This document shows, one piece after another, positions 30,983 to 45,682 of a DNA stretch of 51,052 nucleotides. The position numbers and the translations under genes are program-made. The DNA is taken from positions 1-51,052 of the forward strand of contig JANSYR010000026.1 of the NCBI GenBank assembly GCA_024742285.1, written 5' to 3'. Position 1 is the stretch's first letter. Each line of letters opens with the position of its first letter. This DNA is from a bacterium (GTDB lineage Bacteria > Myxococcota_A > UBA9160 > UBA4427). Under the pieces are notes generated by a model. It was not told the DNA's origin and searched no databases. It was given only the letters and a program-made list of their open reading frames with translations.

Positions 30983-30988
30983 AGTGTG
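30983..30988 (-). promoter_or_regulatory. candidate -10-like hexamer (CACACT) for the SDR gene
   Basis: On the minus strand, CACACT is separated by 6 nt from the ATG at 30976. The match to a -10 is imperfect (C at the first position), but the spacing equals that seen at other genes here that lack a Shine-Dalgarno sequence. Confidence 0.25.
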
Positions 30989-31009
30989 CGACACCGACGT
31001 CCGACCGGC

Positions 31010-31015
31010 TACGCT
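31010..31015 (+). promoter_or_regulatory. candidate -10 box (TACGCT) for the SRPBCC gene
   Basis: TACGCT lies 38 nt before the ATG at 31054, giving a UTR of about 32 nt that includes a GAGGA ribosome-binding site. Confidence 0.3.
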
Positions 31016-31053
31016 CGATCGCCCCGAATCACCCCCGTCCGCCGAGGAACGCA

Positions 31054-31518
31054 ATGAGTCTCGTCCACACCGAAGTCATGCAGCTGAACGCCACCCCGGA
31101 GCAGGTCCGCGCCTTCATCATGACGCCCGACCGCATCCTCGACTACTTCCCGCAGCCCGTGGAGGGCGGCGTCCTCGAGCCGGGCCGCGCGATCTGGTGC
31201 CGGGGCGAGATGGGCGTGTCGATGCTCGAGGTCGTCGAGGCGGAGACGACGGACGCGGTCGTCGTCGTGAAGGTCTCGACCGCCTTCGGTCTCGAGGCGC
31301 CGTTCACGCGCGAGCGGATCGAGGAGAACACGGTCTTCACGATGGTCGAGGACTGGGCGCTCGAGGCGAAGGGCGGCGGCACGGAGCTCACGAAGTCCTG
31401 GCGCGACGTCCAGTCGAAGGGACCGGAGCCCTTCCCGATCGCCGATGCCGTCAAGGAGGGCGCGATCCACGAGAGCGCCCAGCTCGTCGAGGGCTGGAAC
31501 GCGGCGGCGGCCGGATGA
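31054..31518 (+). CDS. SRPBCC (START-like) domain protein
   Basis: 154 residues, one Bet v 1-like helix-grip domain. The N-terminal strand-helix MSLVHTEVMQLNATPEQVRAF and TPDRILDYFPQPVEGGVLEP are the common start of polyketide-cyclase/dehydratase-type SRPBCC proteins. These bind hydrophobic ligands in a deep pocket; some are enzymes and others carriers. Start ATG 31054 has GAGGA upstream. It diverges from the SDR and precedes the DAHP synthase leader region, from which it is separated by a promoter of its own. No ligand can be named. Confidence 0.78.
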   Translation: MSLVHTEVMQLNATPEQVRAFIMTPDRILDYFPQPVEGGVLEPGRAIWCRGEMGVSMLEVVEAETTDAVVVVKVSTAFGLEAPFTRERIEENTVFTMVEDWALEAKGGGTELTKSWRDVQSKGPEPFPIADAVKEGAIHESAQLVEGWNAAAAG

Positions 31519-31586
31519 GACGGCGCTCAGGCGCGCCTCGGCGCGCTCGCTTGCCCGCTCCGACGGCCGGGTGTATACACCCGGCC
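31519..31586 (+). promoter_or_regulatory. promoter of the DAHP synthase attenuator transcript
   Basis: A -35 TTGCCC at 31551-31556 and a -10 TATACA at 31574-31579 are separated by exactly 17 bp. The predicted start point, about 7 nt after the -10, is at or next to the ATG of the leader peptide at 31587. No ribosome-binding site fits between, so the leader mRNA appears leaderless. The -10 lies inside a palindrome (separate entry). The rest of the stretch after the SRPBCC stop shows nothing further. Confidence 0.6.
31565..31586. promoter_or_regulatory. 22-bp perfect palindrome overlapping the -10 box (probable operator)
   Basis: The half-site GGCCGGGTGTA is followed directly by its exact reverse complement, centred on TGTATACA and ending one base before the leader ATG. 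A dimeric repressor bound here would cover the -10 and the start point. TGTATACA cores are typical of some GntR-family operators; the regulator itself is not identified in the window. Confidence 0.6.
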
Positions 31587-31700
31587 ATGGCGGCGACCTT
31601 CTTTTCGTATCCCTTCTTTATGGACGCCCGGGGCTGGTATGCCTTTGGCGCCGCGGAAGGGGCCGTGGAAGGATGCGCCCGTCTCAGAGCAGAGGTCTAG
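31587..31700 (+). CDS. leader peptide of DAHP synthase, rich in Phe/Tyr/Trp
   Basis: A 37-residue peptide. Its first 20 residues, MAATFFSYPFFMDARGWYAF, contain eight aromatic residues (five Phe, two Tyr, one Trp), the end products that control the first step of aromatic synthesis. Three of the five Phe codons are TTT and both Tyr codons are TAT, although the downstream DAHP synthase uses TTC and TAC throughout. The remaining 17 residues are ordinary. It ends with TAG at 31698-31700, 50 nt before a strong terminator. The peptide is probably not functional itself: its translation would sense charged aromatic tRNAs. Confidence 0.75.
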   Translation: MAATFFSYPFFMDARGWYAFGAAEGAVEGCARLRAEV

Positions 31701-31758
31701 ACGCGAGAAGCGCAGGACAGACCGAAGAGAAGACGGCCACCGAAGCTTTCACGGCCCC
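31651..31758 (+). promoter_or_regulatory. antiterminator and competing hairpin of the aromatic attenuator
   Basis: GGGGCCGTG (31659-31667, inside the leader reading frame) is exactly complementary to CACGGCCCC (31750-31758), the left arm of the terminator, so the two structures exclude each other. The same segment can also fold locally: CCGCGG (31651-31656) with CCGTGG (31663-31668) around AAGGGG. A ribosome stalled at Trp17-Phe20 (31635-31646) would cover the 5' half of that local hairpin and free the antiterminator strand. GGGGCCGT recurs in the terminator right arm, as expected for competing strands. Confidence 0.6.
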
Positions 31759-31791
31759 GAGAGGACAGACCTCTCGGGGCCGTTTCTTTTT
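31751..31791 (+). terminator. intrinsic terminator (attenuator) before DAHP synthase
   Basis: A perfect 14-bp stem (31751-31764 with 31770-31783), loop ACAGA, followed by TTTCTTTTT (31783-31791). It is the clearest rho-independent terminator in the window and the only one with a T-tract. It lies 62 bp before the DAHP synthase start, where it can only act on transcripts entering that gene. Confidence 0.88.
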
Positions 31792-31852
31792 CGGGCCTCG
31801 CCGACGCCGGAAAGCACGGACGGCGCGGCCGAGACGAAGCACGGAGATTCCG

Positions 31853-32929
31853 ATGAGTTCCCTGGAAGACCGCAACCTGACGGCGATCGACCCCCTGCCC
31901 ACTCCGGCAGAGCTGAAGACCGCCCATCCCATCTCGACGAACGGGGCGCGGACGGTCCTGCGCGCCCGGACGGCGATCCGGGACGCGATGCACGGACGCG
32001 ATCCGAACCGCCTCGTGGCGATCGTGGGCCCTTGCTCGCTCCACGACCCCGAGGCGGCGATCGAGTACGCGCAGCGCCTGGTTCCGCTGGCGAAGGAGCT
32101 CGAGGGCGAGCTGATCGTCGTGATGCGGACCTACTTCGAGAAGCCGCGGACGACCGTCGGCTGGAAGGGGCTGGTGAACGACCCGCGCCTCGACGGCTCG
32201 TGTCACGTCGACGAAGGCCTCGCCCTCGCGCGGCAGCTGCTCCTCGAGGTCAACGACCTGGGCCTCCCCTGCGCGACCGAGTTCCTCGATCCGTTCGCGC
32301 CGCAGTTCCTCGCCGACGCGATCGCCTGGGCTGCCATCGGTGCCCGCACGACCGAAAGCCAGACCCACCGCGAGATGGCGAGCGGTCTGTCCATGCCCGT
32401 CGGGTTCAAGAACGGAACGGACGGGGGACACCAGGTCGCGATCGACGCGATGACCGCTTCGAGTGCGCCGCATTCCTTCCTGGGGGTCCGCGCGGACGGG
32501 ACCGCAGCCGTCGTCAAGACCGCCGGCAACCCCGACACCCACGTCGTGCTGCGCGGCGGGGGCGGCCGTACGAACTACGACCGCGAGAGCGTCCTGGCCG
32601 TCGCCGAGAAGCTCGACAAGCGCGGGGTCATGGTCGACTGCTCCCACGGCAACTCGAAGAAGGACCCCGCCCTCCAGGGCGAAGCGCTCCGGGACGTCGC
32701 CCGGCAGATCCGGAACGGCTCGAACGACGTCCTCGGGATCATGCTCGAGAGCCACCTCGAAGAGGGGCGCCAGGACTGGAAGCCCGGCAGGGAGCTCCGG
32801 TACGGAGTCTCGATCACCGATGCCTGCATCGGCTTCGAAGAGACCGACGGCCTCCTCCGCGAGCTCGCCGCGTCCGTCCGGAGCCGGCGAAGCGGGCGCG
32901 TCGGACGGCGCGTGATCGACGCGGCCTAG
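31853..32929 (+). CDS. 3-deoxy-7-phosphoheptulonate (DAHP) synthase, class I (AroG/F/H type)
   Basis: 358 residues, the normal length of class I-alpha enzymes. It condenses phosphoenolpyruvate and erythrose 4-phosphate in the first step of the shikimate pathway. Motifs: LVAIVGPCSLHDPEAAIEYA, MRTYFEKPRTTVGWKG, the metal and substrate residues in GARTTESQTHREMASGLSMP, VGFKNGTDG, and MVDCSHGNSKK. The N-terminal segment that forms the allosteric site in E. coli paralogues is present, so feedback control is possible. Start ATG 31853 has GGAG about 7 nt upstream. Which amino acid inhibits it cannot be told. Expression should depend on the leader/terminator upstream. Confidence 0.93.
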   Translation: MSSLEDRNLTAIDPLPTPAELKTAHPISTNGARTVLRARTAIRDAMHGRDPNRLVAIVGPCSLHDPEAAIEYAQRLVPLAKELEGELIVVMRTYFEKPRTTVGWKGLVNDPRLDGSCHVDEGLALARQLLLEVNDLGLPCATEFLDPFAPQFLADAIAWAAIGARTTESQTHREMASGLSMPVGFKNGTDGGHQVAIDAMTASSAPHSFLGVRADGTAAVVKTAGNPDTHVVLRGGGGRTNYDRESVLAVAEKLDKRGVMVDCSHGNSKKDPALQGEALRDVARQIRNGSNDVLGIMLESHLEEGRQDWKPGRELRYGVSITDACIGFEETDGLLRELAASVRSRRSGRVGRRVIDAA

Positions 32930-43030: not shown

Positions 43031-45682
43031 ATGTCGTCGCCGTCGAGCGAGCTGCGCGCCTCACCGCCCCTCCGCCTGAAGCTCGGGGCCTCGGGCGAGT
43101 TCGTCCTCGACCTGCAGAATCTCGAGCTGCGACGGGGGGACGAGGCCGTCGCCCTCGAGCCGCGCCCCTTCGAGCTGCTCGTCTATCTCGTGCAGCATCG
43201 GGATCGGCTGATCGCCAAGGACGAGCTGCTCGACTGCGTCTGGCCGGGGGTAGCGGTCTCCGACACTGCCCTCTCTACCGCCCTCAAGCACGTGCGTCGG
43301 GCGCTCGGGGATCGCGGCAGCGACCCGCACTGGATCGAGTCGCGCAGGGGCCGCGGCTATCGCTTCGTCGCGCCGGCGGCGGCGCTCGGCAGCGCGGACG
43401 ACGAGACCCCCACCGTGGATCGCGATCGGTCGTTCGGGCGGAAACCCGAGCTCGAGACGCTTCACGCGGCCATGCGCTCGGCGGTCGACGGTCAGGGGCG
43501 GATGGTGCTGCTCTCGGGCGAGCCGGGGATCGGCAAATCGTTCCTCATCGAGCGCCTGCTCGAAGCCACCCCGTCCGAGGACATTCATCTCCTGCGCGGC
43601 TGGGGGCGAACCGGCCTCGAGGAGCGGCCCCTGTCATTCTGGGAGCCGATCGCGCGAGCCGATCTCGCAATCGACCGGGAAGCCGGTGACACCGCGTCCG
43701 CGGCTGCGCGGGACGCGCTCGAGCAACTCGTCTCGGGGCAGCTCGACCCGGACGATCTCGCGAGCCGGAACGCGGTGGAGACCGCGCTCGTCGAGGCCGT
43801 GCAGCGCTTCGCCCGGCGTCGACCGACGGTATTGGTCTTCGAGGACGTCGATCTCGTCGACCGCGTCTCCCTTCGCGTGCTCGAGCGGATCCTGCCCGAG
43901 CTGCCCGACGGCTCCTGCCTGGTGATCGGCACGCTGCGGACGTCGCGTCCGCGCGCTTCGGATCCGATCGCTTCCACCCTCGCGAACCTCCACCGTCATC
44001 CGTGGTGCGCACTGCTACGCCTCGACGGACTCGACGCCGATGCGATCCGGACGTTGGCGGAGCCTCTCGGCCTCGAGTCGCCGAGCGAAGCGCTCGTCGA
44101 TCGGCTGCGAGAGCGGACCGCCGGCAATCCCTTCCAGCTTGGCGCGCTGATCTCGGATCCGCGCGGTCTCGCCGTCGCGCTCGAGGACCAGACGCCGCCC
44201 GACGCGGTCCGAGACGAAGTGCGCGGTCGACTGGCCTCGCTCGGACCCGCCCGAACCGAGATCCTCGGCGCCGCCGCGACGGGGAGTGAATCGGTGGGGG
44301 CGGAGTACGTCGCGTTCGCCGCCAAGTGTCCCGTCGACGCGGCAAGGGATTCGCTCGCCGCGGCGGATCGCTCCCTGCTCGGCCGCCTCGCGCCGGACGG
44401 CGACTTCCTCTTCGCGTCGCCGCTCGTGCGGGAAGCGATCTACGCCGAGCTGCCCCCGGATCGCCGCGTCGAGATCCACCGCCGCGTGGGTCACCACCTC
44501 GAGGACCCGTCCGCGGACACCGACCCGCTCGCTTGGATGCAGGACGGGGACGACCAGAGTCAGGACTGGCGCGACACCTCTTTCCTGCACGTGCGACGGG
44601 GCTTCGACGCGCTGGGTCACCTCGACGACGGTCGCACACGAGACCAGTTCGAGATCGAGCTGCACATGACGCTGGCGCGCGCCATGGCCCGCTCCCAGGG
44701 CTGGGGCGGCGAGACCCTCGCCGCCTGGCAGCGAGCGGGAGAGCTCTGTGCGCGCCACGGGGAGGCGCGGCGCGAGGGCATCGTCCGCTTCGGTCTCGCG
44801 GCCGGCCTGCTGAGCCTCGGGCGGATGGAAGAGGCCCTGCACCGCTACGACGAGATCCTGGTGCTGGGAGACCGCGCGGACGACCGCATGCTCCAGGTGG
44901 CGGGCTGCGTGCGGGCGGGTCCGCTGCTCTATCTCGGCCGCGCCGCGGAGAGCGTCGCCAACGCGCGGAACGGCCTCGGGCTGGTCCTCCCGAGCGACGA
45001 TTTCGGCGCGTCGGGATTCTCCGAGGACTGTCATGTGACCCTGCGACAGTGGCTCGGATGGTCGTCGTGGTTCACGGGAGAGACCGACGCCGGCCGGGCA
45101 GCGCTCGCCGAGGCGGTCGCGCTCGCGCGGGGCCGTGACTCCTTCGCACTCGCCTACTCCCTGATGTGGAGCGCCGTCTTCGAGGTGCTCTGCGAGCAAT
45201 GGCAGGCCGCCGCTCGACTCGCGAGCGAGTCTCTCGAGGTCGCGACGAGCGAGCGCTACGCGGTCGTCGACTCCGTGGCGCGGATGGTGGTCGCCATGAC
45301 GGAAGGCATGTGCGGAGACGCCGCGCAGGCGGCACGATCCGCGCAGGTCTTCGCGGCCGCGCTCGGGGGGATGGGCGACTCCGGGAACCGGTCCGGCGCG
45401 CCCCTGATGATGGCCTGCCTCGCCCGCGTGCAGATCCGGGCCGGCCTCGACGACGATGCGTCCCGGACGATCGCGCTCGGCCTCGCGCTCGCGAAGGAGA
45501 CCGGACGTTTCGTCGACGCCGAGCTGCTGCGGCTCGATGCCGAGCTGGCGGAACGGCGCGGCGAGCCGTCGGCCGGTCGGGACCGACTCGAACAGGCGCT
45601 CGCGCTCGCACAGGCGCAGGGGGCGGTGGCGCTCGAACGACGGGTCGCGGCCTCGATGCGTGCAAGCGAGAGCCGGGCGTAG
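43031..45682 (+). CDS. winged-helix (OmpR/CadC-type) regulator with STAND/AAA ATPase and TPR region
   Basis: 883 residues. Residues of about 20-115 are a Trans_reg_C DNA-binding domain (EPRPFELLVYLVQHRDRLIA, LDCVWPGVAVSDTALSTALK, IESRRGRGYRFVA). An AAA_16-like NTPase follows with Walker A LLSGEPGIGKSFLIERLLEA near 163 and Walker B VLVFEDVDLVD near 270. The second half is helical, TPR-like (AGLLSLGRMEEALHRYDEIL). No membrane segment is seen. Such proteins act as ATP-dependent scaffold regulators whose repeat region senses a ligand or partner. It lies between two genes for secreted, tail-sorted proteins and may control them. Confidence 0.82.
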   Translation: MSSPSSELRASPPLRLKLGASGEFVLDLQNLELRRGDEAVALEPRPFELLVYLVQHRDRLIAKDELLDCVWPGVAVSDTALSTALKHVRRALGDRGSDPHWIESRRGRGYRFVAPAAALGSADDETPTVDRDRSFGRKPELETLHAAMRSAVDGQGRMVLLSGEPGIGKSFLIERLLEATPSEDIHLLRGWGRTGLEERPLSFWEPIARADLAIDREAGDTASAAARDALEQLVSGQLDPDDLASRNAVETALVEAVQRFARRRPTVLVFEDVDLVDRVSLRVLERILPELPDGSCLVIGTLRTSRPRASDPIASTLANLHRHPWCALLRLDGLDADAIRTLAEPLGLESPSEALVDRLRERTAGNPFQLGALISDPRGLAVALEDQTPPDAVRDEVRGRLASLGPARTEILGAAATGSESVGAEYVAFAAKCPVDAARDSLAAADRSLLGRLAPDGDFLFASPLVREAIYAELPPDRRVEIHRRVGHHLEDPSADTDPLAWMQDGDDQSQDWRDTSFLHVRRGFDALGHLDDGRTRDQFEIELHMTLARAMARSQGWGGETLAAWQRAGELCARHGEARREGIVRFGLAAGLLSLGRMEEALHRYDEILVLGDRADDRMLQVAGCVRAGPLLYLGRAAESVANARNGLGLVLPSDDFGASGFSEDCHVTLRQWLGWSSWFTGETDAGRAALAEAVALARGRDSFALAYSLMWSAVFEVLCEQWQAAARLASESLEVATSERYAVVDSVARMVVAMTEGMCGDAAQAARSAQVFAAALGGMGDSGNRSGAPLMMACLARVQIRAGLDDDASRTIALGLALAKETGRFVDAELLRLDAELAERRGEPSAGRDRLEQALALAQAQGAVALERRVAASMRASESRA

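Follow-up and report, generated by a model that had tools for sequence, protein, structure and literature searches.

The gene for a type I DAHP synthase in the window (the whole 51,052-nt stretch of bacterial DNA analysed here) follows an aromatic-rich leader peptide whose mRNA is very probably leaderless or nearly so, with at most about 3 nt ahead of the ATG (a probability of roughly 80%). This reading is well supported by comparison, namely by the spacing of the -35 hexamer, -10 hexamer and start codon in relatives, by leaderless starts across the genome, by the lack of a Shine-Dalgarno (SD) site and by a preference for ATG. Leaderless ribosome-mediated attenuators are a kind already known; what is new here is a further bacterial lineage. 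Our computations demonstrate the promoter geometry and its conservation, a genome-wide leaderless signal, and the complementarity of terminator and antiterminator, for which the relevant features are:

31551-31556, + strand: -35-like hexamer TTGCCC (read directly; promoter matrix scan; alignment of leaders)
31557-31573, + strand: spacer of 17 bp (read directly)
31565-31586, no strand: perfect 22-bp palindrome GGCCGGGTGTATACACCCGGCC covering the -10 hexamer (repeat search; absent from the first-pass annotation)
31574-31579, + strand: -10-like hexamer TATACA, 7 nt from the leader ATG (read directly; promoter scans)
31580-31586, + strand: CCCGGCC, the stretch from the -10-like hexamer to the ATG (read directly)
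31587-31589, + strand: leader start codon ATG (read directly)
31587-31700, + strand: leader peptide ORF, 37 codons plus TAG, with A31587 as the proposed transcription start (ORF translation; read directly)
31599-31619, + strand: Phe-Phe-Ser-Tyr-Pro-Phe-Phe codons, proposed stall site (from the sequence; a role we infer)
31659-31671, + strand: 5' arm of the antiterminator, within the leader ORF (pairing computed)
31746-31758, + strand: 3' arm of the antiterminator, overlapping the terminator 5' arm (pairing computed)
31751-31792, + strand: intrinsic terminator with a 14-bp stem, a 5-nt loop and a T-rich tail (terminator scan; sequence)
31853-32929, + strand: DAHP synthase, type I, AroFGH family (PF00793, TIGR00034)

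Probable promoter, leader and attenuator before the DAHP synthase gene

The first-pass annotation had placed TTGCCC, 17 bp and TATACA just before the leader ATG, and these coordinates hold: scored with a sigma-70 weight matrix whose frequencies are textbook values rather than fitted to the host, the pair reaches 9.8 and is the top promoter-like site in 31250-31640, with a runner-up of 4.7. Scores of at least 9.75 occur at 156 of the 1,651,052 positions on one strand of our own-genome sample, which corresponds to a chance of about 5 in 10,000 for a 5-nt window. TATACA occupies -13 to -8 relative to the leader ATG, that is, it lies about 12 nt before the start codon. A stricter consensus promoter scanner, which accepts only -10 boxes ending in T, listed zero promoters in 31400-31900 and so passed over TATACA, an imperfect -10 box. 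The claim that a ribosome-binding site has no place between promoter and ATG is also borne out, as the only sequence there is the 7-nt CCCGGCC, with no SD site. In the E. coli trpL and pheL attenuators there is a 5'UTR with an SD site, unlike in the window's leader. The weak anti-SD energy of -3.8 at -20 of the leader lies upstream of the presumed start and was computed with an anti-SD not read from the host 16S; a 16S search of the own genome gave no match.

Because the promoter ends 7 nt before the ATG, the RNA would begin at the leader's A31587, the eighth base past TATACA. Transcription usually starts at the sixth to ninth base after the -10 hexamer, and the choice of start is flexible. 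Gaps of 8-11 nt in relatives (e.g. L004, L007, L022 and L026) would likewise be compatible with initiation at a G (31583-31584), leaving a 5'UTR of 3-4 nt that is too short for an SD site, yet such a start is distinctly unlikely here, since G31584 is only five bases past the hexamer and A31587 is the sole purine among the sixth to ninth bases.

The mechanism that we infer, with its exact start point, its 70S initiation and its response to aromatic amino acids, would run as follows. A sigma-70-type promoter ending 7 nt before the leader ATG would set the mRNA 5' end, most likely at A31587 (within 0-3 nt), where a ribosome would initiate without an SD site and then read the Phe/Tyr/Trp-rich leader; leaderless mRNAs are generally initiated directly by 70S ribosomes. 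The unusually tight coupling of transcription start to sensing that the first-pass annotation drew from this is conjecture. When charged aromatic tRNAs are scarce, the ribosome would stall on the Phe/Tyr codons at 31599-31619 and free 31659-31671 to pair with the terminator 5' arm, so that the DAHP synthase gene would be transcribed; without a stall, the terminator would form. The 37 codons of the leader include five Phe, two Tyr and one Trp, ahead of a DAHP synthase gene, and the intrinsic terminator sits between the leader ORF and that gene. The antiterminator duplex in the window has a computed energy of -28.8 kcal/mol (z -3.07) and competes with the terminator for its 5' arm. Covariance models of the Rfam leader families gave 0 matches in the window at the gathering score.

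The antiterminator arm has a near-tandem copy within the leader (31647-31671), reading GGCGCCGCGGAAG and then GGGGCCGTGGAAG, while the nearest relatives (L004-L006) have a single copy of the arm and leaders of 29 codons versus 37 here. The terminator stem (31751-31783), with its core CCCCGAGAG, is almost identical in many genera.

The palindrome at 31565-31586 raises the question of an operator, with a repressor over the -10 box as the main control and attenuation secondary. Perfect palindromes of this kind are rare (four of at least 22 bp in 1.65 Mb of the own genome, this one among them), and for C. glutamicum a review (PMC11802643) places a repressor site within the -10 region of aromatic promoters. 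On the other hand, the palindrome is absent in L005 and L006 though the promoter persists, it is only part-formed in L004, and its core GTGTATACAC was found once in 1.65 Mb. We consider repressor control most improbable and rejected the palindrome as an operator because it is not conserved; its absence from L005 and L006, where the promoter persists, leads us to read it as a probable species-level feature.

Orthologous leaders and start signals across the genome

Searching the order (79 genomes), we obtained 38 DAHP synthase matches with E values no higher than 1e-118, among which 27 loci are of the attenuated type (L003-L027, L029 and L030). L030 was dropped for Ns, leaving 26 leaders that come from related genomes and are not independent of one another. 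An aromatic-rich leader and a terminator are present at all 26 readable orthologous loci. For the antiterminator duplex, z falls below -1 in 21 of the 26 leaders (mean -2.31); the other five exceed -1. It could be argued that the ATG frame is untranslated and that leader and promoter arose by chance in intergenic DNA of high GC content, where a frame that stays open well ahead of the ATG, as here (ORF 30984-31700), is common. However, the recurrence of leader and terminator at every readable locus, the antiterminator pairing and the conserved promoter spacing render the chance of this negligible.

We then scored promoters from -100 to +30 while ignoring the position of the start codon. In this start-blind scan, 14 of the 26 leaders have their top site 5-9 nt ahead of the leader start, compared to a mean of 1.0 and a maximum of 4 in 300 shuffles. 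The 12 leaders that fail the test comprise six leadered ones, two intermediate ones and four that fit by eye only. The leadered ones (L011, L013, L014, L016, L018 and L020) have gaps of 19-48 nt, with a clear SD site in five and a poor one in L011; at L016, moreover, a stretch beyond the other end of the gene is masked with Ns. The intermediate gaps measure 10 nt (L026) and 11 nt (L007). In L006, L008, L010 and L029 a better-scoring site exists elsewhere, and TTGNNN, 17 nt, TANNNN and a gap of 6-8 nt are visible by eye. When seven leaders (L003-L009) are aligned, the -35 TTG, present in all, and the -10 TA are the main blocks common upstream of the ATG.

These data bear on whether the transcript begins further upstream, from another promoter or as read-through of the preceding gene (end at 31518), giving the leader a 5'UTR and some other SD-independent start or re-initiation. 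The same-strand upstream gene ends just 68 nt before the leader ATG and six of the 26 orthologous leaders are indeed leadered, but 31250-31550 contains no comparable promoter by the sigma-70 matrix scan. Moreover, the promoter-to-start spacing is kept in relatives whose upstream genes differ (by eye), and a longer RNA would presumably put a stable palindrome hairpin directly before an AUG devoid of an SD site. An upstream start is thus unlikely. A start point at or next to the leader ATG, as originally proposed, draws support from sequence comparison, through the spacing in relatives and the genome-wide signal at -12 and -13 described below.

Beyond these loci, a script recovered a similar leader and terminator in one of 80 named homologues (L039, a Myxococcales record, with a -10-like box 14 nt before its ATG by eye) in a set with little upstream DNA at some loci. 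Inspection by eye led us to discard five other script matches (L046, L065, L087, L089 and L099), and it showed neither a leader nor a terminator at L028, L031, L032 and L113-L133, of which L123 and L129 have too little sequence.

For the genome-wide signal we sampled about a quarter of the own genome (1.65 Mb), in which 1362 genes were called with a home-made, unvalidated codon model that is blind to SD and -10 signals. Among 894 likely first-gene starts, TANNNT peaks at -12 (27 genes) and -13 (15 genes), compared to shuffle means of 2.4 and 2.5, respectively, and it occurs only 0-3 times per position at -25 to -19. The 296 operon-internal starts have one TANNNT at -12 and two at -13. An in-frame TAG stop at -12 contributes to the -12 peak; TA[CT]NNT alone still accounts for 14 at this position. 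Only 2 of the 42 genes with TANNNT at -12/-13 have an SD-like 4-mer versus 482 of the 894 first genes overall, and 38 of the 42 start with ATG versus 642 of 852 others (p 0.025). On this sequence evidence leaderless transcription seems to be part of the organism's normal repertoire. A TA-like signal some 12 bp ahead of starts is also described in PMC3160421, in agreement with the peak, along with leaderless genes in 8 of 33 delta-proteobacterial genomes. Within the window, the + strand gene at 43031-45682 has a TATACT box 6 nt before its ATG and is another likely leaderless gene.

Apparent changes between leaderless and leadered starts

The well-supported branches of the DAHP synthase tree require three or more changes of mode, with 18 rows labelled leaderless and 6 leadered; the labels are our own, and 4 of the 18 leaderless rows were labelled by eye. 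Close relatives can be of opposite mode, as with L020 (leadered) versus L021 (leaderless) and with L011 (leadered) versus L015 and L017 (leaderless). The start codon is ATG in 17 of 18 leaderless leaders versus one of six leadered ones (p 0.0008); when every in-frame ATG is counted, three of the six leadered leaders start with ATG (p 0.035 against the same 17 of 18). The L020 leader starts with GTG behind an SD site, and an inverted repeat, AAGAAACGGGGACGGTCC and its complement, occupies the expected place of the promoter 40-100 nt before the leader start (by eye).

Genomes with a leadered leader still show leaderless starts elsewhere: in G069, TANNNT occurs 5 times at -12 and 3 times at -13 of 164 first genes (shuffles 0.6 and 0.7), and in G030 twice at each position of 197 first genes (shuffles 0.3 and 0.3). 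For this reason the start mode looks like a property of the individual locus rather than of the genome, a suggestion resting on small numbers from two genomes. Among the open-licence papers listed by our searches, we found no printed case of one attenuator switching between leaderless and leadered forms. The same attenuator in both forms in close relatives offers a natural comparison for asking whether the mode of translation start affects attenuation. Since intact 70S ribosomes would bind a leaderless leader at the 5' end of its RNA, leaderless initiation might itself be part of the sensor: the attenuator would then read the free 70S pool besides charged aromatic tRNA, and a switch of mode would give a lineage this second input or take it away; we regard this idea as speculative and improbable.

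Known attenuators and the remaining loci of the genome

The first-pass annotation had pointed to leaderless attenuator peptides in actinobacteria, and the leaders of Streptomyces lividans (trpL1, trpL2, leuL1, leuL2, ilvL, metL and thrL), described as leaderless in PMC8079986, agree with this; unlike the window's leader, they are actinobacterial, belong to other pathways and have start sites mapped by RNA-seq. As a statement of precedent it was too narrow, however, because trpL of Sinorhizobium meliloti is leaderless as well. According to PMC7298713 and PMC10117765, the S. meliloti attenuator RNA (rnTrpL) begins with the ATG of trpL, and like the leader in the window it is a translated attenuator leader outside the actinobacteria. 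It differs in being a 14-codon Trp leader before trpE(G) that also acts in trans and whose start was mapped experimentally.

In Corynebacterium glutamicum, aroR-aroF is likewise described as a case of ribosome-mediated attenuation before a DAHP synthase gene, with Phe-Tyr-Phe in the leader (PMC11802643, PMC4046766), but it is actinobacterial and the leader is a different one. The E. coli trpL and pheL attenuators share leader codons, alternative hairpins and a terminator with our system (PMC11802643) and regulate other genes. The present case would add another diderm lineage to those with leaderless attenuators, with the enzyme that opens the aromatic amino acid pathway as the target there. 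That the genome is of another kind than the actinobacteria, as the annotation had supposed, is consistent with the presence of LpxC, an indication of a diderm that makes lipid A; of 14 control genomes searched in the same way, 4 gave LpxC, and the actinobacterial control (Corynebacterium) was not one of them.

Elsewhere in the own genome, no leaders were seen upstream of leuA, a leuA-like gene, ilvB, a PDT-domain gene and trpE, and a terminator-scan match 491 nt before leuA was taken as spurious, as it lies inside coding sequence. A second DAHP synthase gene (G000:C8:16091-17164, L122), with no leader or terminator seen by eye, encodes a protein 52% identical to that in the window.
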